Assembly: GCA_946548895.1 (NCBI GenBank)
Contig: CAMNQF010000001.1
Span: forward strand, 141,024 to 205,023
Length of the DNA stretch: 64,000 nt
Reading direction: 5' to 3'
Source: an uncultured bacterium
Lineage (GTDB): Bacteria > Bacillota > Clostridia > Oscillospirales > Oscillospiraceae
The notes beneath the pieces were generated by a model. That model was given only the letters and a program-made list of their open reading frames with translations, searched no databases and was not told the origin of the DNA. Positions 40,551 through 56,629 of the stretch are shown here, piece by piece (position 1 is the stretch's first letter; every line of letters starts with the position of its first letter). A program made the translations under genes and the position numbers.

Positions 40551-40743
40551 GGAATCACGATGGAGGACGGCCCCCGCCACGGACTTTGCGTGTAACACGA
40601 TATAAGTTAAGAAATGTCGCCGTTTGGCCAAATGCAGGGCGTTTTTTCGCGAAAACGGATTGCCTGTATACCGCTGGGCGAGGTGCCGGCGCGTATCATA
40701 AACCTGAAATTAACAAAGGAAAGCGGGAAGCCTCAAAAAAGTA

Positions 40744-40772
40744 TTGTCATGGGCAGCCAATTAGTATATAAT
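40744..40772 (+). promoter_or_regulatory. Promoter of the third TetR gene
   Basis: TTGTCA (40744-40749), 17-bp spacer, TATAAT (40767-40772). It overlaps the in-frame ATG at 40749, which therefore cannot be the translation start. Confidence 0.78.
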
Positions 40773-40817
40773 TCCTGTTGGATTAGGAGACAGGAGAAGC
40801 GGTTATCGCGGGGGGAA

Positions 40818-41441
40818 GTGATTACTCTGGATAACACCAAAACGCGAATCATACTTGCGGCAATGAAGGCTGTGCGGCAGTATGGCCTGGAGGGTGTGCG
40901 CATCCAGAATGTCAGCGAGCTGGCAGGGATTTCGTCCGGGGCGATTTACCGTCACTTTGATGGCAAGGAACAACTGCTGATAGAGTGTTTTACTTATGTG
41001 GACAAACAGGCGGCAGCGATTTTTGAACATTTGAAGTTCAATCCTTTGGTCATGCTCACTGACCCTATGGGAGCGGTAAAAGGACTGTGGCTACCTTATT
41101 TTCGGTTTTGGACGTCCCACCCAGATGAAACAGTATTCTACCACCGTTTCCGGGATAGCACGTTTTTCCCTCAATATGACAGAGAGCGGGACTCCACCTA
41201 TTTCAAGACGTTTGCCGGAATGGTCCGCGTCTTCATGGTGACGTTTCCCAGCCTGCGCCGTATGAATCAGGACCTGTTGTGGCTCCATGTCCTCACGTCT
41301 ACCGTCATGTATGCGAAATATGTGGTGGAGGGAACGCTGCCAAACAGTCAGGAAACCGAGGACACCGTATTTCAGCTGCTGACCACTGGACTGAGTGGCT
41401 ATTTAAAACCAGACGACTTCCCAAAAACTGGGCAAGGCTAA
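40818..41441 (+). CDS. TetR/AcrR family regulator
   Basis: 207 aa from GTG 40818. This start is chosen because the promoter at 40744-40772 removes all upstream in-frame ATGs and no other start codon lies between; the RBS (GGGGGAA) is close and weak, so initiation may be poor or I may have missed an alternative. N-terminal HTH: TRIILAAMKAVRQYGLEGVRIQNVSELAGISSGAIYRHFDGKEQLL. The C-terminal domain is unassigned. It precedes the recombinase but is separated by a terminator, so it is its own unit. Target unknown. Confidence 0.8.
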   Translation: MITLDNTKTRIILAAMKAVRQYGLEGVRIQNVSELAGISSGAIYRHFDGKEQLLIECFTYVDKQAAAIFEHLKFNPLVMLTDPMGAVKGLWLPYFRFWTSHPDETVFYHRFRDSTFFPQYDRERDSTYFKTFAGMVRVFMVTFPSLRRMNQDLLWLHVLTSTVMYAKYVVEGTLPNSQETEDTVFQLLTTGLSGYLKPDDFPKTGQG

Positions 41442-41627: not shown

Positions 41628-42668
41628 ATGTCCAGTCAGGAAGCGGCTTTTATCGTTGACGCGGTTGAAAAGAAGCATTCACTCCTTTTCAGCCTATGCA
41701 GCGCATCAGCGCCCCATAGGCCGCAAATCGGCCGCGCGCCGGACAACATAGACAGTGTGCGGGCGTTGCCCGGCAGCGGCACCGCCGCTGTTCGAAAACC
41801 GATAAGACCGACTTTCCAGTGCGCTGACGGCACAATCCATGCCGGCCATATCGCCCAATATGCGGCACACCTCCAGGAAGAGGAGCGGGCAAAAAACACC
41901 ATAAAGAAATATGTCCATGATCTTCACGGCCTAATGGCGTTTTTGAGCGGACAGCCAATCACAAAAGGGGCTGTGATTGCGTGGAAAGAACACTTGGCGG
42001 AAATCTATGCCCCGGCCACTGTCAATTCCATGCTGGCGGCGGCCAATGGCTTTTTCCGTTTTATGGACTGGCCGAAGCTGTCTGTCAGGCCGCTGAAGAT
42101 ACAGCGCCCCCTTTTCTGCGACGAAAGCCGGGAAATGACCCGCGCTGAATATGTACGTTTGGTGGATGAGGCCCGGCGGCAGGGAAATGAGCGGCTGGCC
42201 CTGCTGCTTCAGACGGTATGCGCCACCGGCATCCGGGTGTCGGAACTTCGGTTTATCACTGTGGAAGCGGTGAACCTGGGCCGGACGGCGGTCAGCAACA
42301 AGGGGAAGCGGCGAACTGTCTTTCTGCCGGGGAAGCTGTGCGGGCTGCTGAAAAAATACCTGAAAAAGCAAAAAATCACCGATGGATCGGTGTTTGTGAC
42401 GCGGACGGGAAAGCCCTTGGACCGCTCCAATATTTGGCGTGACATGAAAGCCTTGTGTGAGCGCGCCGGGGTGGAGCCGGGCAAGGTGTTCCCCCACAAC
42501 CTGCGGCACCTGTTTGCCCGGACGTATTACGCGCTGGAAAAGGATTTGTCCCGGCTGGCGGATATTTTGGGCCATTCCAACATCAGTACCACCCGTATTT
42601 ATACCGCGGAGAGCGGTTCTGTTCACGCTCGGCAAATGGAGCGGCTGGGGCTGATCCTTACAACTTAA
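41628..42668 (+). CDS. Tyrosine recombinase (XerC/D-type), candidate invertase of the adjacent switch
   Basis: 346 aa. Catalytic residues of tyrosine recombinases are all visible: Arg203 (ATGIRVSEL), Lys225/227 (SNKGKRR), His290-x-x-Arg293 (FPHNLRHLF), His316 (LGHSN) and Tyr325 (TTRIYT). A SAM-like core-binding domain covers about 70-150; the first ~65 residues are extra and low in conservation. Its stop codon lies inside the left 24-nt inverted repeat of the segment 42660-42905, so the gene physically abuts its probable substrate. No integrase neighbours such as excisionase, relaxase or phage genes are present. It is therefore more likely a dedicated DNA invertase than a mobile-element integrase (inference). 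Confidence 0.9.
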   Translation: MSSQEAAFIVDAVEKKHSLLFSLCSASAPHRPQIGRAPDNIDSVRALPGSGTAAVRKPIRPTFQCADGTIHAGHIAQYAAHLQEEERAKNTIKKYVHDLHGLMAFLSGQPITKGAVIAWKEHLAEIYAPATVNSMLAAANGFFRFMDWPKLSVRPLKIQRPLFCDESREMTRAEYVRLVDEARRQGNERLALLLQTVCATGIRVSELRFITVEAVNLGRTAVSNKGKRRTVFLPGKLCGLLKKYLKKQKITDGSVFVTRTGKPLDRSNIWRDMKALCERAGVEPGKVFPHNLRHLFARTYYALEKDLSRLADILGHSNISTTRIYTAESGSVHARQMERLGLILTT

Positions 42669-42683
42669 TTTTTGTTATGTTGT
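42660..42683 (+). repeat. Left inverted repeat of the switch
   Basis: Built like a tyrosine recombinase core site: outer arm ACAACTTAA, 6-bp spacer TTTTTG, inner arm TTATGTTGT, the arms being 8/9 reverse complements. It includes the recombinase stop codon, which would survive crossover in the spacer. Confidence 0.82.
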
Positions 42684-42718
42684 TGTTCCGGCAAAAAGAA
42701 GCTAGCATACATATCCGT

Positions 42719-42747
42719 ATTATACAGAAAGTCCGGCTTTTTTACAA
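42719..42747 (-). promoter_or_regulatory. Promoter inside the invertible segment (OFF orientation here)
   Basis: On the minus strand TTGTAA (42747-42742), 17-bp spacer, TATAAT (42724-42719). It now directs transcription into the 3' end of the recombinase gene, possibly as antisense; a 15-codon ORF (MYASFFLPEQQHNKN) follows it. Confidence 0.85.
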
Positions 42748-42881
42748 GCCTTTTTCCAAATCTAAACGCGAAAGAACCGACGGGATGCGCTCTGCTCCAG
42801 ATCTCGCCTGCCTTTTTGTGCCCGCTATCGGGTTTCTTGCTTTCTCCGCGATGAAATCTGAGATACAATATTCTAATTAAT

Positions 42882-42905
42882 ACAACATAACAAAAATGAA
42901 GTTGT
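42882..42905 (-). repeat. Right inverted repeat of the switch
   Basis: Reverse complement of the left repeat except for one base in the outer arm (TGAAGTTGT). Inner arm ACAACATAA and spacer CAAAAA match the left site exactly, as required for strand exchange. Confidence 0.82.
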
Positions 42906-42945: not shown

Positions 42946-43863
42946 ATGGAAAAAATACTGATTGTCGATGACAGCCTCTTGCAAGCGACACAGCTGAAGG
43001 CAATTATAGATGACGAATATGACGTCACCATCGCGCAGACGGCGGAAGATGGCCTGCGCAGAGCGAGCGACGAAGATTTTTCCCTCATTCTGCTGGATGT
43101 TGTGATGCCGGAAATGGATGGGTTTACGCTGCTAAAAAAATTGCAGGAGGAAATCATTACCCAAAATGTTCCGGTCATTTTGATCACCAGCCTCGCGGAC
43201 GTGGCAAATGAGCAGCATGGTCTCATTTTAGGGGCCGTGGATTATATTACGAAGCCGTATATTCCCCTGATCGTCAAAGCGAGGGTAAACACGCACGTCA
43301 AACTCTACCAATACCGCAGGCAGATTGAGGAACAATCCATGACCGACCAGCTGACCGGGATTGCCAACCGCCGCAGGTATGACCGCTACAGTCTGGCGAA
43401 ATGGAACGAAGCGGCCCGGCTGCAAATTCCTTTTTCCATCTGTATGTTCGATATTGACCATTTCAAAGTGTATAACGACACATTTGGCCACCCCGCGGGG
43501 GATAAAGTGATCGCCGCCATCGCGAAAACACTATCCTCCTATCTGAAACGCAGCACGGACTTTGTGGCCCGCTACGGGGGAGAGGAGTTTGTGGCGCTCT
43601 CCACGGGCGATTCCTCTGCAAAAATGTTTGAGCACCTGAAAAAAATCCGGCAGGCCATAGAAGACCTGCACATCCCCCACAGCCCAACCGTATCCGAGTG
43701 GGTGACTGTCAGCGTGGGCGGCGTTACCATCATCCCTGAAGCGGGGGGCGCCTATGACGTTTATCTAAAAATTGCTGACACCATGCTGTACGACGCGAAA
43801 AAGCATGGGCGCAACAGAGTCGTTTGGGCTGACGAGCAGCTAAAGCAGATATTCGAAAAGTAA
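42946..43863 (+). CDS. Response regulator with diguanylate cyclase (GGDEF) domain
   Basis: 305 aa from ATG 42946 (MEKILIVDDS) with GAGGAG upstream. Receiver domain (1-120): acidic pair VDD, phospho-acceptor Asp in LLDVVMPEMDG, Thr in ILITS, Lys in ITKPY. GGDEF domain (about 150-305): active site YGGEEF, and an inhibitory I-site RSTD five residues upstream, so the enzyme should make c-di-GMP and be feedback limited. PleD/WspR-like single-chain enzyme, cytoplasmic; no histidine kinase is encoded nearby. First gene of an operon with a PilZ protein and a sortase-anchored adhesin, 40 bp downstream of the invertible segment. Confidence 0.93.
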   Translation: MEKILIVDDSLLQATQLKAIIDDEYDVTIAQTAEDGLRRASDEDFSLILLDVVMPEMDGFTLLKKLQEEIITQNVPVILITSLADVANEQHGLILGAVDYITKPYIPLIVKARVNTHVKLYQYRRQIEEQSMTDQLTGIANRRRYDRYSLAKWNEAARLQIPFSICMFDIDHFKVYNDTFGHPAGDKVIAAIAKTLSSYLKRSTDFVARYGGEEFVALSTGDSSAKMFEHLKKIRQAIEDLHIPHSPTVSEWVTVSVGGVTIIPEAGGAYDVYLKIADTMLYDAKKHGRNRVVWADEQLKQIFEK

Positions 43864-43882
43864 ACAGAACTTGGAGGAAATC

Positions 43883-44569
43883 ATGAAATTGTTCCACCTG
43901 TTTGGAAGGAAAAGGGGTGCGCCGCCTCAAGAGGCTGAAAAGCAAACCGGCGCGGACGAGTGGGAAGTCTATTCGGGGATGCGGGTAGAGGTGACGACCG
44001 TTAGCGGCCATATCCTTTTCGTGGCGAAGCTGATGAGCCTGCACGGAAGCCACGCGGAACTGCACCAGTATTCGAAAGCGGAGATTGCTCAAGAGGAACC
44101 CACTCCTGTGAAGATACGCGGGTACAACGACAGAGATCGAAAGGCTGTCTGCATGGAGGGCGTGATTTCGCCCCTGCCGCAGAATAAATGGTCGGTTGCG
44201 GGATTAAAAGTATGCCGGGTGGGAAATGACCGCGCCTTTTTTCGCCTTGACACGAACCTTGACGCGACCGCTACCATGTTCAGGGGCTTGGAAATGGGGG
44301 AAAAACCGTGCAAGCTGCTGAATATCAGCATAGGCGGAGCCTGCATTAGTTCGGAATCCAGATACCATGACGGCGATAAATTTTTATTGAAGGTCAGGCT
44401 GCTGGAGGACAGGCCGGAGTCAGCCCTGTTTTCTCAGGTGGTGCGCGTCCTTGAAAAGGGCGGCGCCGGCTTTGAGTACGGATGCCGGTTTTTGGAGCTG
44501 ACCGAAGCCGATCAGGAGCAGATTACACAGAACATTTTCGCGGCGCAGAGACAGAAAAGAGGACATTAA
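43883..44569 (+). CDS. PilZ domain protein (c-di-GMP receptor)
   Basis: 228 aa from ATG 43883 with GGAGG five bases upstream (the ORF-track start is a TTG inside that RBS region). The N-terminal half resembles a YcgR-N/flagellar brake-like beta domain (GMRVEVTTVSGHILFVAKLMSL). The C-terminal PilZ domain has both c-di-GMP contacts: RAFFR (RxxxR) and NISIGGACI (N/DxSxxG). It is therefore expected to bind the product of the upstream cyclase. Only 19 bp separate the genes. Output target unknown; the adhesin gene 13 bp downstream suggests control of surface attachment. Confidence 0.9.
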   Translation: MKLFHLFGRKRGAPPQEAEKQTGADEWEVYSGMRVEVTTVSGHILFVAKLMSLHGSHAELHQYSKAEIAQEEPTPVKIRGYNDRDRKAVCMEGVISPLPQNKWSVAGLKVCRVGNDRAFFRLDTNLDATATMFRGLEMGEKPCKLLNISIGGACISSESRYHDGDKFLLKVRLLEDRPESALFSQVVRVLEKGGAGFEYGCRFLELTEADQEQITQNIFAAQRQKRGH

Positions 44570-44582
44570 AGGAGAATACGAA

Positions 44583-47500
44583 ATGGGGATGTTTTATCGC
44601 CGTAGCCGGGGCGGAAAGCGGCTTCAACGGGAATCAAAATCTGAACGCAATTCAGGAGTACGGCTTGCCGCGCTCCTTTTGTGCCTGTCCATGCTGACAG
44701 GCCTTCTCCCCACCCTGGCACAGGCGGCGGGAGATATGGAAAAACTCTCCGGCATTGTGACGTTTGACAGCATCACCCTCCACGATGCCGGCTCCAGCGC
44801 GGCAATTGCGAACGGCGCCCTCATTGAAAAGGACAGGCAGCTGATGCTGCGCTATACATACACGATCACAGAGGATCAGTGTAAACAGATCGCGGCAGAT
44901 ACGCGGTATTATTTAGAAGTATCGCCCCATTTAGTACTGACCCATTTGGAAAGCGGGTCACCTCTGACCATTGAAACCGATAGCGGGCAGGTTCAGTTTG
45001 GCAAGATTTATGCGGACGGCAGCAGCGCATGGGTGATATTTGACGCAAAGGAAGGCGGCGCCGGCACCGTCTTATCGGAATATGGGGAACTGAATGACGC
45101 CTATTTCTACCTGAACTGTAACCGGGCAGGCGATGTACCGGCGGATGAATCGCCCATAGATGGGAACAGCAACCTGTACGCGATAAAGGTTGAAAACAGG
45201 GACATACTCCAGTTCGGGTACGCGGAAAATGAATCGGTTGCGGCGAAAGCGCAGATCAGCAAGGACGGCAGCCTGATGGGCAGGACCATCACCTGGTCGA
45301 TTGACTATACTCCGTGGCAGAATCCCGCCGGGAACGATCCTGTTGACCTGAGCACACCCTTTGAGCTGCGGGATACCATTGATTCCAGCCTGCACAGCTT
45401 TGTCGGCGGCAGTGTGACAATCGGCGGAGCACCCGTGGCCGCTGTTGCGTCCCGCGGCGACCTCAAGGGCGGGGAGGATGCCTATGTGATCGTCGAGACG
45501 CCGGAAGACGGCGGAAACACGACCTTGACATTCGGCGGCACAAAATTTAACGCGGGTCAGGCGACACAGGGAAATCCGGCAGCGCCGCTGAACATTACCT
45601 ATCAGACTGCCATCAATGATGATCTTCTCCTGCCGGGCGGCGCGGCCGACAAAATCGTAACCAACACCGCCTACTTGTTTGCCGGCAAAGAGGGCTTGTT
45701 CAGCCGCCTGAACATCAGCGGCGGCACCACCGTAACCATTCCCCAGCCCATATGGCTGACAAAGACGGGAAAGACGACTCGCAACCCAGGCAATGGATCC
45801 ACCACCAATTGGGAGGTTACGTTTCAGCCCAACGGCTTTTCGTTTACCGCGGACAACAGCCTGACGCTCTCAGACCAACTTCCGACCGGCAGCACGCTGG
45901 TGGCAGATTCGCTGGAAGTAAATGGGACCAAGACGGCGGCAGTAGCCGGGGCAAATAACGGGTTTACGGTTTCCCCGATTACAACGGACAATCAGGCTGT
46001 CACCATCACCTATCAGACCCATGTGCCGGAAGAAATGTACGACAGCGGCACAAGCCTGGGCAGCAATGCGGCGTGGTTTATATTTGATTACAACGGTTCG
46101 AGCTATTCCACACCCAGGGCCACGACGCCCATTGGCAGCGGGGACGGCAGCGGGACCCCCGGAACGGCCACGCTGGTCAAGACAAACGGAGGATACAAAG
46201 CGGCGACCCGCACCATTGACTGGACCGTGAAAATCAATCCCCACCAGGCGTATCTCAGGGGCGGCACGTTTACAGACGATCTGAGCGCGGTTGGGCCTCG
46301 ATGCGCCAAGGGGCACGACAGCGGCCTGGAACTGGCAGGCGGCGTGGACGGCATCGCCATCAAGATCGACGGCAGCGACCCGAGCGAAGATGAGAAAGCG
46401 CTTGTCAAGTTAGACTATGAATACAATACGCGGGTCCTCACCATAGAAGTTGGGGAGATTGGCGCGAAAATCATCACGCTCACCTACACCACCAAGGTCT
46501 GTGACCCCTGTATCTTTGCCAACAACAGCGCGAACGTCACATTAACCAATGAAATTTCGGGAGACATGGGGATTGGCAAAGATACCGCTGGCACGCGCCC
46601 GGTCAGCGCCAGCAGCGCGGCGGTGGCCGGCGCCACGGTTTTGACCAAAAAAGCGCCGGTCTATGATTACGCCAGCGGCACGATGAAGTGGACGGCAGAG
46701 GTAGACGCGGCGGGGCTGCCTATGGCGGGTGTGGTCTTGACGGACGAGCTGCCCGAAGGCTTGACCTATGTGGAAAACTCGCTGCAAATTGCCCCGGAAA
46801 TTCAAGGCGCGTCGGCAAGCGTGAAGGGGCAGACGCTGACAATTCATCTGGGCGCCCTCACGGGATTAACGGCCGTTACCTTTGATACTGAGGTTGACCC
46901 AGAGGCGCTAGGTTTCAGCGGCGATGGCCCGGTGGTGGTGGAGAACACCATCCAAATGAACGGAGAGGCGGACGGAGCTGAGTTCGCGGAGGTTTCCCAC
47001 CGCGTTCAGCAGAATTTTTCCAATCACGGCCTTGTCAAGAGCAGCGCGGTGGATAACCGGCAGGAGCTGATTCAATACGAGGTGCTGATTAACCCGTACC
47101 ACCTTGCCCTGCCGGAAAATCCCTCCCTTGTGGACACGCTGGACAGACGGCTCCAACTGGACACAGATACGTTGAGGTTCTATCAAGCAACCCTGGGCGG
47201 AACAACCGCGGCCAGCGGACAGAGACCCGATTATGAAAAGATTGGAGACGGTCAGCCGCTGGAAATCACCGGCTTTGACCCGGACGAGAACAGCTTCACC
47301 GTGCGGCTTCCGATCAGCGCCGGCAGCCGGGACGCCTACGTGCTGACCTATACGGCGGATTTGATTGACCATCAGGCGGGCAGTTACGGCAACAGCGTCC
47401 GTTTTGAGGGCGGCTCCGTTCTGCTGGGCGGCAGCAAAAATAACAGCGCTTCCGTCGGCGGAGGCGGCGGGGGCGGCGGAGGCGGCGTCGCCGCCCGGAG

Positions 47501-48809
47501 AGCCACGATTGCCGTTGTCAAAACGGACGGGGAAACACAATCCCCGCTTTCCGGCGTGTCCTTCCTGCTGTATCAATGGGACAGCGGCAGCGAAACGCGA
47601 GGCCTGCCCTTCGCCAAGGGGCAAACGGACGCCAATGGAAAGCTGTCGTTCAAGGTAAAACCCAACGCGGTCTATGAGTTAGTGGAAACTGAGAGCGTCC
47701 CCGGTTACGGCAGCGATTTCAAATGGGCAAGCCTTCCAGACAGTGTGAGGGAAACGGACAGCGGCCTCTTGATTACAGCGGGCGCGGCAAAATCAGAGCT
47801 GAAGCTGGAGCTGACAAACGATGCCGATACCACCGACATTGTATTCCGGCTGGTCAATGAATCCGGCATCCCGATGGCGGGCGCGAGCGTGAAGATATTC
47901 GCGTTTGACCCCGCAGGAGAAACGAACCCGGTTCCGGCCAAGGAGGCAACCGTTTCCCCCGATGGGACAGTCAGGTTCCCGGGGATCCGCCGCGGAGCAA
48001 AATACTATATCCAGCGCCCTGATGGCGGAATTATGCCCATAGACGTTCCCGTCCAGGCAAATGACGAGCCAAAGGTGACTCTGCCGGACGGCACAACGGC
48101 AACGCTTAACGCGGACTATCGGGCAACCGGCGCCATGCCGGCGGAGCAACAGTGGGAATTAACGGTCAAGAAAGTAATCAGCGGCGGCGAAACCCCTCTG
48201 CCTGGGGCGGCGATTGGATTGTACGCGGACGCAGCCTGTCAGGCATTGATTAAAACAGCGGTCAGCGGACCGAATGGAATCATCACTTTTTCGGGTTTGA
48301 TAGAGGATCAAAGCTACTGGCTAAAAGAAACGGCGGCGCCAAACGGGTATCGGTTAAACTCTAACAGCTATGAGGGAACGGAAGAAACTCCCGCCGTAAC
48401 CATCGAAAATACTCCATTGCCAGTGAATCCCGGTAGGCCCGGCGATGGGGGGAACCCTGCTGATCCGAGCAGACCCGGTGATCCGGGCGATACGGAGAAT
48501 TCGGGCGATACGGAGAATTCGGGCGATACGGAGAATTCGGGCGATACGGAGAAACCGGGCGATGCGGAGGATCCGAACAATGCGAATGATTCGGGCAGCT
48601 CCGATCATTCCGGCCATCCTGATAGCCCTGGCGAACCCAGCGCACCCGCAAGCCCTGGCGGTGGAGGGGCCTCCACAGGCGGCCCTGACATCCCGCAAAC
48701 GGGCGACAATACCCAATTTTTGATCGTTGTGACGCTGTTTTCAGGCATTTCGCTGGCGGCGGTGATGCTATACCAATTTTTGGAGTCAAGAAGGCGTGAA
48801 AAAAAGTAA
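44583..48809 (+). CDS. Sortase-anchored surface adhesin with SpaA/Cna-B-like domains
   Basis: 1408 aa. A long basic N terminus precedes the signal segment VRLAALLLCLSMLTGLLPTLAQA. A large extracellular part contains several repeated beta-sandwich modules with TYTTKV/TYQT-type strands and DELPEGLTYVENSL, typical of isopeptide/collagen-adhesin-like repeats. A Gly10 hinge follows, then SpaA/Cna-B-like domains (IAVVKTDGETQSPLSGVSFLLYQ and LTVKKVISGGETPLPGAAIGLY). The C terminus has a Pro/Gly/Asp-rich stalk encoded by 18-bp repeats, IPQTG sorting signal, TM helix and RRREKK tail. Covalently wall-anchored adhesin or pilin-like protein; no sortase gene in the window. Cotranscribed with the GGDEF and PilZ genes, RBS AAAGGAG overlapping the PilZ stop. 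Confidence 0.9.
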   Translation: MGMFYRRSRGGKRLQRESKSERNSGVRLAALLLCLSMLTGLLPTLAQAAGDMEKLSGIVTFDSITLHDAGSSAAIANGALIEKDRQLMLRYTYTITEDQCKQIAADTRYYLEVSPHLVLTHLESGSPLTIETDSGQVQFGKIYADGSSAWVIFDAKEGGAGTVLSEYGELNDAYFYLNCNRAGDVPADESPIDGNSNLYAIKVENRDILQFGYAENESVAAKAQISKDGSLMGRTITWSIDYTPWQNPAGNDPVDLSTPFELRDTIDSSLHSFVGGSVTIGGAPVAAVASRGDLKGGEDAYVIVETPEDGGNTTLTFGGTKFNAGQATQGNPAAPLNITYQTAINDDLLLPGGAADKIVTNTAYLFAGKEGLFSRLNISGGTTVTIPQPIWLTKTGKTTRNPGNGSTTNWEVTFQPNGFSFTADNSLTLSDQLPTGSTLVADSLEVNGTKTAAVAGANNGFTVSPITTDNQAVTITYQTHVPEEMYDSGTSLGSNAAWFIFDYNGSSYSTPRATTPIGSGDGSGTPGTATLVKTNGGYKAATRTIDWTVKINPHQAYLRGGTFTDDLSAVGPRCAKGHDSGLELAGGVDGIAIKIDGSDPSEDEKALVKLDYEYNTRVLTIEVGEIGAKIITLTYTTKVCDPCIFANNSANVTLTNEISGDMGIGKDTAGTRPVSASSAAVAGATVLTKKAPVYDYASGTMKWTAEVDAAGLPMAGVVLTDELPEGLTYVENSLQIAPEIQGASASVKGQTLTIHLGALTGLTAVTFDTEVDPEALGFSGDGPVVVENTIQMNGEADGAEFAEVSHRVQQNFSNHGLVKSSAVDNRQELIQYEVLINPYHLALPENPSLVDTLDRRLQLDTDTLRFYQATLGGTTAASGQRPDYEKIGDGQPLEITGFDPDENSFTVRLPISAGSRDAYVLTYTADLIDHQAGSYGNSVRFEGGSVLLGGSKNNSASVGGGGGGGGGGVAARRATIAVVKTDGETQSPLSGVSFLLYQWDSGSETRGLPFAKGQTDANGKLSFKVKPNAVYELVETESVPGYGSDFKWASLPDSVRETDSGLLITAGAAKSELKLELTNDADTTDIVFRLVNESGIPMAGASVKIFAFDPAGETNPVPAKEATVSPDGTVRFPGIRRGAKYYIQRPDGGIMPIDVPVQANDEPKVTLPDGTTATLNADYRATGAMPAEQQWELTVKKVISGGETPLPGAAIGLYADAACQALIKTAVSGPNGIITFSGLIEDQSYWLKETAAPNGYRLNSNSYEGTEETPAVTIENTPLPVNPGRPGDGGNPADPSRPGDPGDTENSGDTENSGDTENSGDTEKPGDAEDPNNANDSGSSDHSGHPDSPGEPSAPASPGGGGASTGGPDIPQTGDNTQFLIVVTLFSGISLAAVMLYQFLESRRREKK
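48485..48574 (+). repeat. 18-bp tandem repeat in the adhesin stalk
   Basis: Five units of GGGCGATACGGAGAATTC; the first three identical, the last two diverged. They encode repeats of GDTENS. Copy number changes would keep the frame and alter stalk length. Confidence 0.9.
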
Positions 48810-48950
48810 TGCGCTCCCCGCTGTTGCTCTTTGCCCCGGCTGTTTTTATCCGTTTCGGTACGGCGCCGGCAATATGGGCACTGACTTTTCCGGCCCGCAT
48901 CGGGGGGCGCAGTCAGCGGCTCCAGGAAAAACTGCATTTGGATCGTAAGC

Positions 48951-48990
48951 TTACGCAGCCCTCGGATTTTTGTATCCGAGGGCTGCGTAA
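48951..48990. terminator. Terminator hairpin between convergent surface-protein genes (1)
   Basis: A 17-bp perfect stem with TTTTGT loop, about 140 bp after the adhesin stop. Confidence 0.7.
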
Positions 48991-49039
48991 ACGTTATGGC
49001 CACCGGCTATATGGCCAGGCAGCGTCTCAGGAAAAGAAC

Positions 49040-49093
49040 GGCCCTGCCCGCTCCAAACAATTGACAAACCATTTGTTCGGATTAGGCAGGGCC
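49040..49093. terminator. Foldback structure between convergent surface-protein genes (2)
   Basis: GGCCCTGCC pairs with GGCAGGGCC, with an inner weaker stem (AACAA/TTGTT). On either strand it would end transcripts of the adhesin or the giant SLH gene. The gap 48810-49147 holds no gene. Confidence 0.5.
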
Positions 49094-49147
49094 GGCCGTT
49101 TAAAACGTGAGCCTTACTAGACGCGAACCTGATTCAGCGCCCTTCTA

Positions 49148-52100
49148 TCAGGTGTTTTCAATGAAGTTCTTCAGCATTTGCGCCGCTTCGGCACGGGTCG
49201 CAGTCCCTCCGGGGGTAAGCTGGCCGCTGCCATTGCCGTTCAAAATTCCGTTCTCCACGGCCCAGCACAGCGCCTCCTGGGCGTAGCTGCTGATCTGGTC
49301 CGCGTCCGTGAAGGCCGCCAGATCGCGGCCATTCGCCTTGGGGCTTCCCACGTACCGCCAGAGCATCACCACAAACTGCTCCCGCGTCACGCTGTCGTTG
49401 GGGCCGAACTGGCCGTCCCCATAGCCGTTTACGATGCCGTTCTCCGCGGCCCAGGCGACGCTGTCCGCATACCAGGCATCACCGCTGACATCGTGATACA
49501 CATCTGTCAGCGCCTGGTCCGGCTGGCCCTCCAGCCGGTACAGCACGGTGGCCACCATTGCGCGGCTTGTGGTCTGGTCTGGGCTGAACGTCGTTTCGCT
49601 GGTACCGTTGAACAGTTCGCGGGCGCTGGCGAAAGTCACAGCCTCAGCCGCCCAGCTTGTGGACGGCACGTCGGAAAACGTCTTGCTGTTGTCCACGATC
49701 TCTACCGTGGCGGAGCCGTTCAGCGGAGCGTTCAGCTTGCCGTCTTTTACCACGCTGCGCTGGAGGACCTCGCGGGTGCCGTCGTCATTGACCAGCACCG
49801 CCACGGTGCCGGGGCCGGCGTCCTCCGCCGGGACGGTGAGCGTCACGCCGCCAGGTACGTCCGCCACGGTTTCGCCCCCCGCCGTCAGGGTCAGCGCCAC
49901 CGCGCCGTCCACCTGCTCGGTGACTACGTTCACCGTGCCGCCCGCGCGGCTCAGGGTGTTCAGCGCCTCATGGGGGATGGTCGCGTCGGCGACAGGGGTG
50001 GAGACGGTGAGCGCCGCGTTCGTCTGGCTCTGGATCTGGCTCACTGTGGAGGCCGGGATGGACACCTGGGTTTTGGTCACGTCGCTGGTGATTTCCGGCT
50101 TGATGACAATTGTCTCGCTCTGGTTCCTGACCGCCTCCCTCACCAGCTGATTTCCGTCCGAGGCGCTCAGGACAGTGTTTGCCGTGCCGTTCTGGATGGT
50201 CGTCCGCGTCGGGGTGCCGTTTGTCTCCGCGGGCGGCGTGCTGTCTGTGGCTGTGCCGCCGCCGCCGCTTCCGCTTCCGCCGCCGGTGCCGCCGCCGCTG
50301 GCAGCGGAGACCGCCGCGACCTGAATCGTGACTGTGTTGTAGTTGGCGGCATCCTGCGGCGTGAAGACCACGTCATACGATTTCCCGGCTTCGGCCGTAA
50401 TGCCGCCATCCGCCCAGGCGAAGGCTCCCGGCACATCTGTGGCGCCGCCGTTCAGCTTAATTTCACTCAGCGGCTGTCCCGCGGCGCCGGACGCCGTGGG
50501 CGCCGTATTGACGCTCGGGTTTGCCTTTGCGATCTGTACTGTAATCTCCGCGGCGGCGATGCCGGTGTAATTCACGCTGTCCGCCACCCTGTACCAGACG
50601 GTGTACGTGCCAGCGGCGGTGCCGGTGGGGATTTGATCGGAATACGCGCCGTTCTGGCTCGTGCTGTACTCGATTGTGCCGATACCGCCAACCGTGCTGC
50701 CGCCGGTGACAAGGGCTTGCGCGCCGCCGGTGTACGTCAGGCCGGGGTCCGCCGGCTTGGCGTCCAGCTTCGCGTCCACCTTGTAAATGGCCGCCGTCGC
50801 GCTGTCGGGCCAGGTGATGAGGTAATTTCCATTTTTGCCGTCCGGGTTTTTGGACGTGATGGTTACCTGCTTGTTTGTACCGGCATCGGCCGTCGCAAAT
50901 TGGCCGTCCACCGTGAGCGGGATCGTATCCGTACCCACCAGGTCGCCGCTCTTCCAAACGGCGCTCAGTGTCGCGGCGGTGGTTCCGTCATAGGGCTTAT
51001 CCTGGGCTGTCACCACCGGGGTCACGGGCTTCGGGTTCGCGACGAAGGGTACGCTGGCCGTGTTGGATTTGCCGTAGCCGTCCGCCCCCTCCTTGTACGC
51101 CTCCACGGTGAATCCGCCTGTGCCCGTTACGGTCACGACGCCATTTTGGTCGATGGAAGCAATGCCGCTCTCCGCAACGCTCCACCGAATCGCGCCGCCG
51201 CCGGAGCCGCCCATGGCGCTCAGGCGGAAGGTATCGCCGTAGTGGACGTCAGTTGGAATGCTGGTGACGATGCTCAGGGGGTTCTGGCTGGCCGCCACGA
51301 TCTCAAAGGTCCCGGTGACGGGGGGATCGAACTGGTAGTTGCCGCCTGGGTTGTCCTTGACGGTAACGGTGTACGTGCCCACCGCGATCCGGGGCGCGGG
51401 CAGCTCCACGGTATATTCGCCCTCCGGGATAATGCGGTTTGCGCCGTCCCGGACCACGACGGCGGGGGTCTTTTCCGTGCCGTCATACGGGAAGGTGTTC
51501 TGCGTGCACAGGACGGTGGGCGTATCCGTGTTCACGGAAATGGTCACATTCTCCACCTTCGCGGGGGCGCTGTCCTTGTGGTTCTCGTCCCCGGCGACCA
51601 CCTTGTACCATACGGTGTAGCTGCCGGCGTCCACAGCGGTGGGCAGGCTGTAGCTGTAGCTGCCGCCATCCAGAGAATAGGCCAGCTCTCCGCCCTCCGC
51701 CGTGCCGGGGGTGACCAGGGTCAACGGACTGCCGTTGTAAGTCAGAGGACCTGTGGCCGCCTTCGGCGCTTCTGTCACACTTGCAGCCTTCGGGGTGATG
51801 GACGCCTTAGTCGTAGAGGGCCAACCGCTGACGTCGTATTTTTCCTTGACGCCGTCGGAAACCGTCAGGCCGGTAATGATAACCGTCTTGTTTTCCCCGG
51901 CATCAGCGTCCATGAAATGCCCCGCTGCGGTGACGCCGTCGGCGGGAATGACGTCGCCGGCGACCAGACCGCTGAGGGTGACGGTCAACGCGGCGTCTGT
52001 GCCGCCGTCATAGGGCTTATTCGCCGCCGTTACAACTGCGGTGACCGGCTTCGGGTTGACGTAGAAGGTCCACGTGTCGCTGACGCCGCTTTCAGCGGCC

Positions 52101-55100
52101 GTGACGGTGACGCTGCCCGACTTCTTGGCCGTCACCACGCCGCTGCCGTCGATGGCGGCGACGTCCGGGTCACTGCTGCTCCACGCCACCGCGCCGCTGC
52201 CGGAGCCGCCGGCGGCGCCCAGACGGATGGTATCGCCATAGTAGACGGTGTCCCGCTTGCCGGTGATGGTCAGGGCGGGCAGGTCCGCGCCGGTAATTTG
52301 GAAGTGGGCCGTCGCTGTAAAGCTGTAGTTCCCTCCTTTGCTGGTGATGATAACGGTGGCCTCGCCCACCGCTACGTTGTCGCTGTAGGCCACCGTGTAC
52401 TCGCTGGCCGGGATCACATTGCCGCTCTTGTTGTCGGTCACGGTGACGGTGGGCTTGTGTTCGCCGCCGGTGTAGCTGAAGCTGCCGGAGGACAACGTGA
52501 CGGTCAGGTCGTCCGCGCTCAGGGTATTCGTTATGATCTCCGCGGGGATTGCAATGACGTCGCTGTCCTCGTGCTTGGAGTCGCCCTGTACCTTGGCCAA
52601 AACAGTGTACTTGCCCACATCCGCCTTGGTGGGGATCGTGGCGAAATACGACACGCCGTCCAGGGAATAGAACGGAATCCCGCCCGTGGCCGTGCCCGCG
52701 TTGACCAGCTCCTGGGCCGTGCCGTTGTAGGTCAGCCCCGTTTTCGCCGTGGGGGGCGTGGTAAATTTTGCCTGAGGCTTTACGATCTCAAAGGTCGCTT
52801 GGGTGCTGAACTGGTAGTTGCTGTTGTCCTTGTTCCAAATCAGAACAGTCGCGGTACCCACGTTGGTGTTATTGCTGTAAAACACGTTTACGTCAGATGT
52901 CATAAACGTTTTACCCTCTATGGATACCCATACATCGGGCTTTATTGCTCCACCGGTATACACAGCTGGATTCTCCGCCAAGAGCAATGTAACTGTTGGG
53001 GTGACCAGCTTCTTCTGGATCGTCACATACACCACCCGCGGGGCGGTGTCGGCGGCCCCGTTCTCACCCTTGACCTTGTAGTAGACGGAATAGCTGCCCG
53101 CGTTGACGCCCATGGGGATCGTGGGGGCAAAATCAGCGGCGTCCCCCGTCAGGGAATACTCCACGTGGCCATTGACCGCGGCGCCGTCCGTCACAAGCTC
53201 CTGGGGATTTCCGTTGTAGGTCAGGTTCTTCGCCTGCGGCGCGACGGTTATGGCGGCGGCCCCCGCCTTGATGGTAAAGGTCCTGCTGCCGCTGACGGTG
53301 TAGTTGCCGCCGGGGTTGTCGCTGATGATGACGGTGGCGTTGGTTCCCACCTCTACGTTGTTGCTGTAGCTCACCGTGTACTCGCTGGCCGGAATCACGG
53401 TGGAGCCGTCCTTGACCACCGCGTCGGGCTTCTTCGGCGTGCCGTCGTAGTCAAAGGCCTCGCGGGACAGCTCAATTGTGGGGTTGGTCACCGATTTCGG
53501 CTTGATGGTCACATCCACCCTGACCGCGGGGCTGTCCTTGTAATTCCCGCTGGCCTGGGCCTTGTACCAGATGGTGTACGTACCCGCGTTGGCCGCCTTG
53601 GGGACGCTCAACGTGAAATAGCTGCCGTCCCGGGAGTACGCCAGGGTCCCGTTGGCCGCCGTGACGCCGCCGCCCACCAGGTCCTGCTCACTGCCGTTGT
53701 AGGTCAGCTCGGTGGCTGTCGAGCCCGACACGCTGGCGGCCTTCGGGGTGATGGACGCCGTGGCGGTGGCGGGGAGCTTAATGTCGTACTTGTCGCTGAG
53801 AGGGAGAACGGCGCTGGATTTGAGATGAATCGTCACCTGCTTGCTGTCTCCGGCGTCGGCGGTGTTAAACTGCCCGGCCAGCATAGAGTCAAGCGCGATG
53901 GTGTCGCCGTTCAGCAGGTCGCCGTCCTTCCAGGTGACGGCCAGCTCCGCCGCGTCGCTGCCGTCAAACTCCTTGTCCTTGGCGGTCACAATGGGGGAGA
54001 CCGGCCTCTTTTCCGCGCTGAACGACCAGCTGACCGAGACCGCGCCGTAGTTGCCGTCCGCCTCCTTTGTGGCGGTGATGGTGGCCGCGCCCGACTTCAG
54101 GACCTTGACCAGGCCGTTTTGGCCGATGGTGGCAACGGCGGTGTCGCTGCTGGCCCAGGTCACGGCCCCCGTCCCGGAGCCGCCGGTTGTGCTGAGGGTA
54201 AAGCTGTCGCCGTATCGGATTTCGCCGGGCTGGCCCACGATGGACAGCGGGTTCTGGCCCATCATGAGGATGGTGAATTCCGCGCTTTTCGCGGTGATCT
54301 CGTAGTTTCCGCCCGCCACGTCGCCGATGGTGACCATGTGCTTCACGGCAGCCGACGAGGCGGTTTTCCAGTCCGTGCCGCCGTAATTGACGGTGTACTC
54401 CTCCGCCGGGATCACGCGGTGGTTCGTGTCCTTCACCGTGACCGACGGCTTGTGGACCGCGCCGTCATACGAGGCGCTGGGGGGCGTGAACTCAATGATG
54501 GGGCCGGCCACCTCCTGCGGGGCGATGTTTACCGAATTGTCCAGCGTTTTGCCCACCGTGTCCTTGTGGTTGCCGTCGCCCTTCACCCGGTACCAGACCT
54601 CGTAATCCCCCGCGCCTGTGCCGGTGGGGAGGCTGGCGGAGTAGGTCAGGCCGTCCAGGGAGTACTCCATGGCGCCTCCCGTGGCGGAGCCCGCGTTGAC
54701 CAGCGCCTGGGGATTGCCGGTGTACGCCAGCCCGGTTTTTCCCTCGGGAGCGGTTACATCCGTTACCTCCGCCTTGAAAATGGACGCGGTGGTTATGTCG
54801 GGGTAGGTGATGAGGTAGTTCTCATGATTCCCCGTACTGCCGCTGAAGTCCGGACTGGTGCTGTCGACCATCACCTTCTTGTCCGTTCCGGCGTTGGGGT
54901 CCTCAAAGCGGCCCGCCAGCGTGATGGTGATGTTGTCGCCGCCCACCAGGTCGCCGCTCCGCAGCCTGGCGGTCACCGTAGTGGTCGCGGGGGTAACGCC
55001 GTCATAGTCTTTCGACGCCGCCGTCACAACGGCGGTCACCGGCTTCTTCTCCGCGAAGAAGGACCAGGCGGCGGTCTGGTTGGCATAGCCGTCTTTCTTG

Positions 55101-56629
55101 CTGGTGGCCGTCACCGTCACAGAGCCCACGCCCTTGATGGTGAGCAGCCCGGTATCGGCGCCGATCTCCGCAATTGCGGAACCGCCAACGCTCCACTCTA
55201 CCGTCCCGTTTCCGCCGGTGGTTCCCAGCTGGATGGTGTCGCCGTAGTAGACCCGCTCCCGGGCGCCGGTGATGGTCAGGGGCGTCTGGTCCGCCGGGGT
55301 GATGGTAAAGGTGGCGGTGTTCTTGCCGTCTGTGGTATCGAAGGTGTAATTCCCGCCGCTGACTTCGGTGATGGTCAGGGTGTACGTGCCCACGTTGAGC
55401 AGCTCGGTCACGGCGTTGCCGCTGGCGTCCTGGTATGCCGTCTTGTATTCGCTGCCGTCAATCAGCAGGCCGTTGTCGTCCCGGACGGTGACCGTGGGCG
55501 CCTGCTTCTCTCCGTTGTACGTCACCGACGGCGGCGCCACCCGGATGGTGGGAGTGTCTACGGCGTTGACGGTGATGGTGGCGGCCACCGGTTGCGGTTG
55601 GGTGTCCTCGTGGTTGCCGTCGCCCTGGACCTTGTACCAGACGGTGTAAGGGCCCACCGCCTTCCCGGTGGGGATGGCCGGAGCATACTCGCCGTTCTGG
55701 GCCAGAGAATAGACCATCGTTCCGCCGGACGCGCTGCCCGCCTCGGCCAGCGCCTGCTCGGTGTTGTTGTAAGGCAGGTTTTCCAGGCCATTGGGCGCCG
55801 TCACCACCGACGCGGCGCCCTTTGTGATTGTAAAGGTCCCCGTGCCGTTGACGATGTAGTTGCCGCCGTTGGCGTTGGTGATGATGACCTCCGCCGTGCC
55901 GGCGTTGACGTTGTTCTGGTAAGACAGGGTGTACTCGGTGCTCGGAATGGCGGTGCTGCCGTCGTTCACCTCAACCGCGCCGTCCGCCGGGATCTGCGGA
56001 TTGCCGTCATAGGTATAGCTGCCGGACACCGTGACCTTCGGGCTGACGACCTCCTTCGGCTTGATGGTCACACTGACCGAGCCCACCGTGGGATCGTCTG
56101 CATGGTTGCCGTCGCCTACCACCTTGTAGGTTACCGTATAGGTCCCTGCCGCCGTTGCTTTGGGAATATCTTTGCCATAGCCGCCGCCGTCCACCGCGTA
56201 CTCGATGTGGCCGCCCTCGGCGGTGCCTATGGTCACCAGCTCCTGCGGCTGCCCGGTGTAGGTCAGGTCCCTGGCCTGGGGGGAGCCGGTCAGCTGCGCG
56301 CCGCCCTTGCGGATCTCAAATGTGACGCTGCCGCTGACATCGTAGTTTCCGCCCTCGCCGCTGGCGATAGTGACGGTGGCCGTACCCACGTTCTTGTTGC
56401 CGCCGTAGCTCACCGCGTACTCAACCGCCGGAACCACCGCCGTGCCGTCGCTGATGGTGACGGCGGGCCGCTTCTCAGTGCCGTCAAAGGTATAGAAATA
56501 CCCCTTGGCGTCCTGCTGCAAGTCGCTGCCGGACAGCGTGACATTGGTCACGCCCGCCGTCAGCTGCTTCCGGGTGATGGCCACCTGAACCGCCTGCGGC
56601 TCGGAGTCGCGGTGGTTGGCGTCCCCCAT
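49148..56629 (-). CDS. Giant SLH surface protein, C-terminal part (downstream of in-frame stop)
   Basis: 2493 aa. Arrays of Ig-like modules recur: MBG-like units ending in YTVWYKVxGDxNHxDS (eight here), Big_2-like units (YYGDTIQLGTTGGNG ... four) and YDG-like units (KPVTAVVTAANKPYDG ... four). A Gly/Ser linker (GGGTGGGSGSGGGG) leads to a unique domain and three SLH repeats (FSDVPSTSWAAEAV, YHDVSGDAWYADSV, FTDADQISSYAQEA) that bind wall polymers. It begins with ATG directly after a TAA in the same frame; the preceding residues continue the same repeat, so this is the rest of the upstream ORF. No RBS before that ATG; if separate, it relies on TAAATG reinitiation and would lack a signal peptide. 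Function probably adhesion or S-layer-associated. Confidence 0.82.
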   Translation of the reverse strand: MGDANHRDSEPQAVQVAITRKQLTAGVTNVTLSGSDLQQDAKGYFYTFDGTEKRPAVTISDGTAVVPAVEYAVSYGGNKNVGTATVTIASGEGGNYDVSGSVTFEIRKGGAQLTGSPQARDLTYTGQPQELVTIGTAEGGHIEYAVDGGGYGKDIPKATAAGTYTVTYKVVGDGNHADDPTVGSVSVTIKPKEVVSPKVTVSGSYTYDGNPQIPADGAVEVNDGSTAIPSTEYTLSYQNNVNAGTAEVIITNANGGNYIVNGTGTFTITKGAASVVTAPNGLENLPYNNTEQALAEAGSASGGTMVYSLAQNGEYAPAIPTGKAVGPYTVWYKVQGDGNHEDTQPQPVAATITVNAVDTPTIRVAPPSVTYNGEKQAPTVTVRDDNGLLIDGSEYKTAYQDASGNAVTELLNVGTYTLTITEVSGGNYTFDTTDGKNTATFTITPADQTPLTITGARERVYYGDTIQLGTTGGNGTVEWSVGGSAIAEIGADTGLLTIKGVGSVTVTATSKKDGYANQTAAWSFFAEKKPVTAVVTAASKDYDGVTPATTTVTARLRSGDLVGGDNITITLAGRFEDPNAGTDKKVMVDSTSPDFSGSTGNHENYLITYPDITTASIFKAEVTDVTAPEGKTGLAYTGNPQALVNAGSATGGAMEYSLDGLTYSASLPTGTGAGDYEVWYRVKGDGNHKDTVGKTLDNSVNIAPQEVAGPIIEFTPPSASYDGAVHKPSVTVKDTNHRVIPAEEYTVNYGGTDWKTASSAAVKHMVTIGDVAGGNYEITAKSAEFTILMMGQNPLSIVGQPGEIRYGDSFTLSTTGGSGTGAVTWASSDTAVATIGQNGLVKVLKSGAATITATKEADGNYGAVSVSWSFSAEKRPVSPIVTAKDKEFDGSDAAELAVTWKDGDLLNGDTIALDSMLAGQFNTADAGDSKQVTIHLKSSAVLPLSDKYDIKLPATATASITPKAASVSGSTATELTYNGSEQDLVGGGVTAANGTLAYSRDGSYFTLSVPKAANAGTYTIWYKAQASGNYKDSPAVRVDVTIKPKSVTNPTIELSREAFDYDGTPKKPDAVVKDGSTVIPASEYTVSYSNNVEVGTNATVIISDNPGGNYTVSGSRTFTIKAGAAAITVAPQAKNLTYNGNPQELVTDGAAVNGHVEYSLTGDAADFAPTIPMGVNAGSYSVYYKVKGENGAADTAPRVVYVTIQKKLVTPTVTLLLAENPAVYTGGAIKPDVWVSIEGKTFMTSDVNVFYSNNTNVGTATVLIWNKDNSNYQFSTQATFEIVKPQAKFTTPPTAKTGLTYNGTAQELVNAGTATGGIPFYSLDGVSYFATIPTKADVGKYTVLAKVQGDSKHEDSDVIAIPAEIITNTLSADDLTVTLSSGSFSYTGGEHKPTVTVTDNKSGNVIPASEYTVAYSDNVAVGEATVIITSKGGNYSFTATAHFQITGADLPALTITGKRDTVYYGDTIRLGAAGGSGSGAVAWSSSDPDVAAIDGSGVVTAKKSGSVTVTAAESGVSDTWTFYVNPKPVTAVVTAANKPYDGGTDAALTVTLSGLVAGDVIPADGVTAAGHFMDADAGENKTVIITGLTVSDGVKEKYDVSGWPSTTKASITPKAASVTEAPKAATGPLTYNGSPLTLVTPGTAEGGELAYSLDGGSYSYSLPTAVDAGSYTVWYKVVAGDENHKDSAPAKVENVTISVNTDTPTVLCTQNTFPYDGTEKTPAVVVRDGANRIIPEGEYTVELPAPRIAVGTYTVTVKDNPGGNYQFDPPVTGTFEIVAASQNPLSIVTSIPTDVHYGDTFRLSAMGGSGGGAIRWSVAESGIASIDQNGVVTVTGTGGFTVEAYKEGADGYGKSNTASVPFVANPKPVTPVVTAQDKPYDGTTAATLSAVWKSGDLVGTDTIPLTVDGQFATADAGTNKQVTITSKNPDGKNGNYLITWPDSATAAIYKVDAKLDAKPADPGLTYTGGAQALVTGGSTVGGIGTIEYSTSQNGAYSDQIPTGTAAGTYTVWYRVADSVNYTGIAAAEITVQIAKANPSVNTAPTASGAAGQPLSEIKLNGGATDVPGAFAWADGGITAEAGKSYDVVFTPQDAANYNTVTIQVAAVSAASGGGTGGGSGSGGGGTATDSTPPAETNGTPTRTTIQNGTANTVLSASDGNQLVREAVRNQSETIVIKPEITSDVTKTQVSIPASTVSQIQSQTNAALTVSTPVADATIPHEALNTLSRAGGTVNVVTEQVDGAVALTLTAGGETVADVPGGVTLTVPAEDAGPGTVAVLVNDDGTREVLQRSVVKDGKLNAPLNGSATVEIVDNSKTFSDVPSTSWAAEAVTFASARELFNGTSETTFSPDQTTSRAMVATVLYRLEGQPDQALTDVYHDVSGDAWYADSVAWAAENGIVNGYGDGQFGPNDSVTREQFVVMLWRYVGSPKANGRDLAAFTDADQISSYAQEALCWAVENGILNGNGSGQLTPGGTATRAEAAQMLKNFIENT

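Follow-up and report, generated by a model that had tools for sequence, protein, structure and literature searches.

Organization of the locus

The locus lies within a 64-kb window, by which we mean the whole stretch of DNA that was analysed, of the 3.8-Mb genome of an uncultured Oscillospiraceae bacterium from the gut. A TetR-family regulator (40614..41441, + strand), which is syntenic in orthologues, precedes a gene for a tyrosine recombinase (41628..42668, +). The recombinase carries the Pfam domains Phage_int_SAM_1 (PF02899) and Phage_integrase (PF00589), and its structure matches are XerC-like, XerA and XerD. The motifs TGIRVSE (200), KGKRR (225), HNLRH (290), LGHSN (314) and RIYT (323) are consistent with an R-K-H-R-H-Y catalytic set. 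The SAM-like core-binding domain and the catalytic domain with the R-K-H-x-x-R-H-Y residues that define a tyrosine recombinase are both present.

The sequence-only reading had described a complete tyrosine recombinase ending in the left of two inverted repeats. The open reading frame 41628-42668 does end there, its TAA stop codon lying in the outer arm of that repeat, but the word complete has to be qualified. A dispersed repeat of ~181 bp (41648..41828, +) sits in frame within the gene and adds ~61 codons after codon 8, near the N-terminus, compared with the orthologues L022, L023 and L093, from which it is absent. Full-length copies that are ~75% identical occur elsewhere in the same genome (e.g., G000:C42:9753-9934), and among 41 other genomes of the genus, 6 contain full-length or partial copies (L148–L152 among the copies). 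The repeat looks like a small, non-autonomous mobile element whose insertion into coding sequence is tolerated.

Three genes follow on the + strand. The first encodes a REC-GGDEF response regulator (42946..43863), a diguanylate cyclase close to PleD and WspR with a GGEEF active-site motif and an RSTD I-site five residues upstream of it. The second encodes a PilZ-domain protein (43871..44569) in which RAFFR and NISIGG correspond to the RxxxR and NxSxxG motifs, consistent with c-di-GMP binding. The third encodes a large surface protein of 1408 residues (44583..48809) with a signal-like N-terminus, collagen-binding and SpaA domains, and an LPXTG-like IPQTG sorting signal with a hydrophobic stretch and a basic tail. 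No Rfam family matched in the window, and hence no c-di-GMP riboswitch.

The order recombinase–switch–GGDEF–PilZ–adhesin is found in orthologues, which retain tetR–recombinase–switch–GGDEF and mostly also PilZ. A sortase gene stands right after the adhesin in L022 and L026; in the window, 48809-49150 holds no ORF of sortase size. In L023, L024, L025 and L027 the homologue of the adhesin is cut to its first ~97 residues, with GGDEF and PilZ retained. Convergent to the operon, the window encodes a 2493-residue SLH/YDG/Big_2 surface protein (49148-56629, −), part of which is similar to the C-terminal end encoded by a gene close to the L040 switch.

Recombination sites and promoter of the proposed invertible segment

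Inverted repeats of 24 nt, matching at 23 of 24 positions, had been reported from sequence reading at 42660-42683 and 42882-42905, and both the coordinates and the match count were reproduced. They bracket a segment of 198 bp (42684..42881), the arrangement of inverted repeats around a short segment that marks an inverton, and inversion is observed in homologous segments. The left site (+), ACAACTTAA-TTTTTG-TTATGTTGT, is made up of a 9-nt outer arm (42660-42668), a 6-nt spacer (42669-42674) and a 9-nt inner arm (42675-42683). The right site is inverted (−) and reads ACAACTTCA-TTTTTG-TTATGTTGT, with its inner arm at 42882-42890, spacer at 42891-42896 and outer arm at 42897-42905. The pattern of both can be summarised as ACAACATAA-N6-TTATGTTGT. 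The 9/6/9 build claimed earlier also holds: spacers and inner arms are identical, and the right outer arm has the sole mismatch, at its position 8, where an A-to-C change gives TTCA for TTAA and is absent from orthologues.

When all pairs in the 64-kb window were scanned, no other 24-nt inverted pair matching at 20/24 or better was found with 100–400 nt between the arms. The 3.8-Mb genome holds no further site at up to three mismatches besides these two, so control in trans of other genomic sites by this recombinase was rejected.

A candidate promoter, TTGTAA-17-TATAAT, lies inside the segment on the minus strand (42719..42747), with its −10 box 35 nt from the left site. It matches the consensus at 10 of 12 positions. 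A lone match of this kind in 800 bp is not significant, as 0.9 is expected. The promoter is credible because of its enrichment at a fixed place across the related loci described below, where 33 of 62 segments score at least 10 compared with 3 of 62 after shuffling. The −10 box often lies 33–36 nt from the site, at a near-constant distance to the left site. A putative promoter at a family-conserved position inside the segment is a further mark of an inverton, and the earlier claims that it points away from the operon and that the sequenced orientation would be OFF are borne out by its minus-strand placement. By coordinate arithmetic, inversion would bring the −10 box to 99 nt before the cyclase ATG at 42946, in agreement with the ~90 nt first estimated, and the site itself would lie within the mRNA leader.

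Two further elements of the segment were considered. A hairpin followed by a T-tract in mid-segment (42781..42818, +), tentatively read as a possible insulating terminator, is conserved in orthologues but without compensatory changes. Its proposed role as a directional terminator tightening the OFF state was rejected, as hairpins with T-tracts are enriched on both strands alike (24 vs 20 of 54 segments; shuffled, 10 and 7). A second promoter on the plus strand, active in the OFF state, was likewise discarded: the TACAAT near the right site is kept in L021 and L022, but it has no −35 box and is not conserved in L023, L027 or L063.

A family of related loci in Clostridia

Scanning 84,980 genomes turned up 73 loci whose recombinase is related, and further loci came from searches of whole genomes within the genus and family, for ~100 relatives in total. 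A repeat pair (24 nt, at least 19/24) lies directly behind the recombinase in 83 of the 103 recombinase loci with sufficient downstream sequence, vs 2 of 95 in an upstream control and none of 103 after shuffling. In most members the recombinase ends inside the left site or within ~50 nt of it.

The two 6-nt spacers are identical within 74 of the 75 loci of clear site structure, while the loci have 43 different spacers among them, and comparison between loci gives agreement in only 3.9% of cases. Mean within-locus identity falls from 99.6% in the spacer to 93% in the inner arm and 83% in the outer arm; choosing good repeat pairs inflates all three figures, though not their gradient. Spacer identity within loci is what strand exchange inside the spacer would demand.

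The genes behind the switch in other members encode chemoreceptors, CheW/Hpt, LRR_5, SLH, and Cna_B/SpaA and dockerin surface proteins, peptidases and two-component systems. Multi-gene alignments of the cargo served solely to carry Pfam scans, and the cargo proteins are not homologous to one another. Where a genome holds two cassettes, their spacers usually differ, as in Oscillibacter sp. 1-3 (TTTTTG and TTTTCG), H. hathewayi WAL-18680 (TGATGA and TATCAA), SIG427 (TTTCTA and TGGTGA) and CAJTGJ (TTTTTG and TTTCCG). Different spacers in one genome would keep the switches independent.

In 13 of 77 loci there is a third site that shares the spacer, mostly 41–46 nt from its direct neighbour, or about four helical turns (among them L021, L022, L032, L040, L046, L047, L123 and L130; L030 has one too). 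Its presence implies more than two states. At L030 (8811-13536, Oscillibacter sp. 1-3), the site behind the recombinase has three more copies ~4.4–4.7 kb downstream, where the assembly contains N runs; these distant copies suggest a much larger invertible or excisable segment.

We are evenly divided on whether the locus represents a type of switch cassette in Clostridia that is both self-contained and portable. Such a cassette would have its stop codon usually in or beside the left site and a private 6-nt spacer, and it would be plugged before unrelated c-di-GMP, chemotaxis and surface-protein operons as independent, non-cross-reacting switches, with the recurrent third site 41–46 nt off adding states.

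Both orientations among relatives

Comparing orientation across related genomes had been suggested as a test of inversion, and homologous segments lie in opposite orientations between matching flanks in three pairs of relatives: the Anaerotruncus colihominis strains L051 and L089, L064 and L075, and L031 and L034. Both orientations expected of an inverton therefore occur among relatives.

L021 and L022 are direct orthologues of the locus, with a GGDEF protein 88% identical to that of the window and three sites each. Between the two, a 17-nt piece flanked by two sites has switched sides and reversed its direction, and the inner arm TTTTGTTGT has shifted from the left to the right site with both outer arms unmoved. 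Inversions between sites explain this difference, and the exchange maps to the spacer.

Among 62 non-redundant segments, the better promoter faces away from the cargo 50 times and towards it 11 times, with clear calls at 40:6. As the promoter mostly faces away from the cargo, OFF is the common assembled state, and it is also the promoter orientation of every close orthologue recovered, about a dozen in number.

Proposed mechanism and alternative explanations

All the above make it highly probable that the locus is an invertible promoter, that is, a phase-variation switch, flipped by the recombinase encoded right beside it. The recombinase would bind the 9-nt arms of both 24-nt sites, and strands would be exchanged inside their identical 6-nt spacers. 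As sequenced, the promoter would fire back towards the recombinase gene, leaving the operon OFF. Once the segment is inverted, transcripts would begin ~90 nt ahead of the GGDEF gene, and the diguanylate cyclase, the PilZ c-di-GMP receptor and the wall-anchored adhesin would be made together, so that a minority of cells might become adhesive or biofilm-prone. Inversion in this particular genome and orientation-dependent transcription of the operon are what we infer from the sequence.

The activity of the window copy is unproven, and it may be slow or locked because of the 61-codon N-terminal insertion in the recombinase and the point change in the right site, both absent in orthologues. We consider it unlikely that this family member is locked OFF, with the insertion, the right-arm mutation or both abolishing inversion and the operon silent or driven by rare read-through. 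The unique A-to-C change and the in-frame 181-bp repeat would fit a locked state, as would the OFF assembly of the close orthologues. However, the frame is open across 346 codons with the catalytic motifs intact, and the insertion falls in the N-terminal tail, ahead of the SAM-like domain at 75–146; with the DNA-binding domain preceded rather than interrupted, a recombinase of this form may function. Changes in the outer arm are, moreover, common in the family, even in pairs known in both orientations.

A second alternative is that the element mainly regulates the recombinase, with antisense RNA made over its gene in the sequenced orientation and damping switching, so that orientation would set the rate of flipping as well as the state of the operon. 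The aim of the promoter at the 3′ end of the recombinase gene in most assemblies and the overlap of the left site with its stop codon are consistent with such a role. As the main role it appears quite unlikely, since control of the operon is the simpler explanation, given that conserved cargo follows the right site and that switches of this class are already known. Regulation of the recombinase is compatible with the main explanation and does not exclude it.

That the repeats are a chance inverted repeat, a transcription terminator or a regulator site is extremely improbable: each site does contain a dyad of its own and can fold into a weak RNA hairpin (−5 kcal/mol), but this reading is refuted for the family by the opposite orientations among relatives, the arm exchange between L021 and L022 and the spacer covariation, and it sits poorly with 83 of 103 loci vs 0 of 103 after shuffling.

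Relation to known switches

The invertible promoter proposed here has counterparts in several known systems. In the fim switch of E. coli, an invertible promoter segment of ~300 bp lies next to the tyrosine recombinases FimB/FimE and controls an adhesin operon. The locus is similar in its invertible promoter segment, adjacent tyrosine recombinase and adhesin operon. The fim switch differs in its repeats and recombinase lineage, and the locus has a single recombinase and an operon that includes a second-messenger enzyme as well as an adhesin anchored to a Gram-positive wall.

Clostridioides difficile possesses switches controlling cwpV (Cdi1), flagella (Cdi4), c-di-GMP proteins (Cdi2 and Cdi3) and cmrRST (Cdi6) (PMC5903667, PMC9286219). 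Like the locus, they have short inverted repeats, segments of ~150–230 bp and tyrosine recombination acting on surface and c-di-GMP functions (PMC5903667, PMC9286219). The Cdi switches are mostly inverted by RecV in trans, whereas the recombinase of the locus is adjacent; phosphodiesterases (pdcB and pdcC) are their c-di-GMP targets, while the cargo here is a diguanylate cyclase with a PilZ receptor and an adhesin (PMC5903667, PMC9286219). A RecV-type system, with a non-adjacent recombinase and several unlinked sites, is thus not what is found at the locus, given the adjacent recombinase and the two sites that are the only ones in the genome at up to three mismatches.

A further counterpart comes from the hCom2 survey, the main text of which describes inverton group 139 and invertase group 35 from gut Clostridia, with 32 of 33 invertons in Clostridia (PMC11892184). 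As described there, a tyrosine-type recombinase/integrase adjoins nearly all members of group 139, in a position that the inverton cannot regulate, and the member from Intestinimonas butyriciproducens has 14-nt repeats with ~227 bp between them and shifts with surface attachment (PMC11892184). The locus agrees with this group in taxon, segment size, adjacent recombinase and its non-regulatable position, and on these features it is probably related to group 139 (PMC11892184). No GGDEF–PilZ–adhesin cargo is named for group 139 in the main text of the survey, where GGDEF does not occur, whereas the locus has such cargo (PMC11892184).

Gut Clostridia are known to carry a class of invertible promoters that adjoin tyrosine recombinases, and the locus is very probably of that kind. 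In the literature compared, we found no switch described whose cargo combines a diguanylate cyclase with its PilZ receptor and an adhesin, and no description of family-wide spacer covariation with the stop codon inside the site.

The predicted switch would let a subpopulation of a gut commensal turn on c-di-GMP synthesis, a PilZ receptor and a collagen-binding-type adhesin at once, a one-step heritable change to attachment. With its dozens of recombinase/site pairs, in which the spacers vary together, the family offers a test bed: the specificity of the pairs can be assayed in laboratory E. coli, and the orientation of the switches can be read from existing metagenomes.
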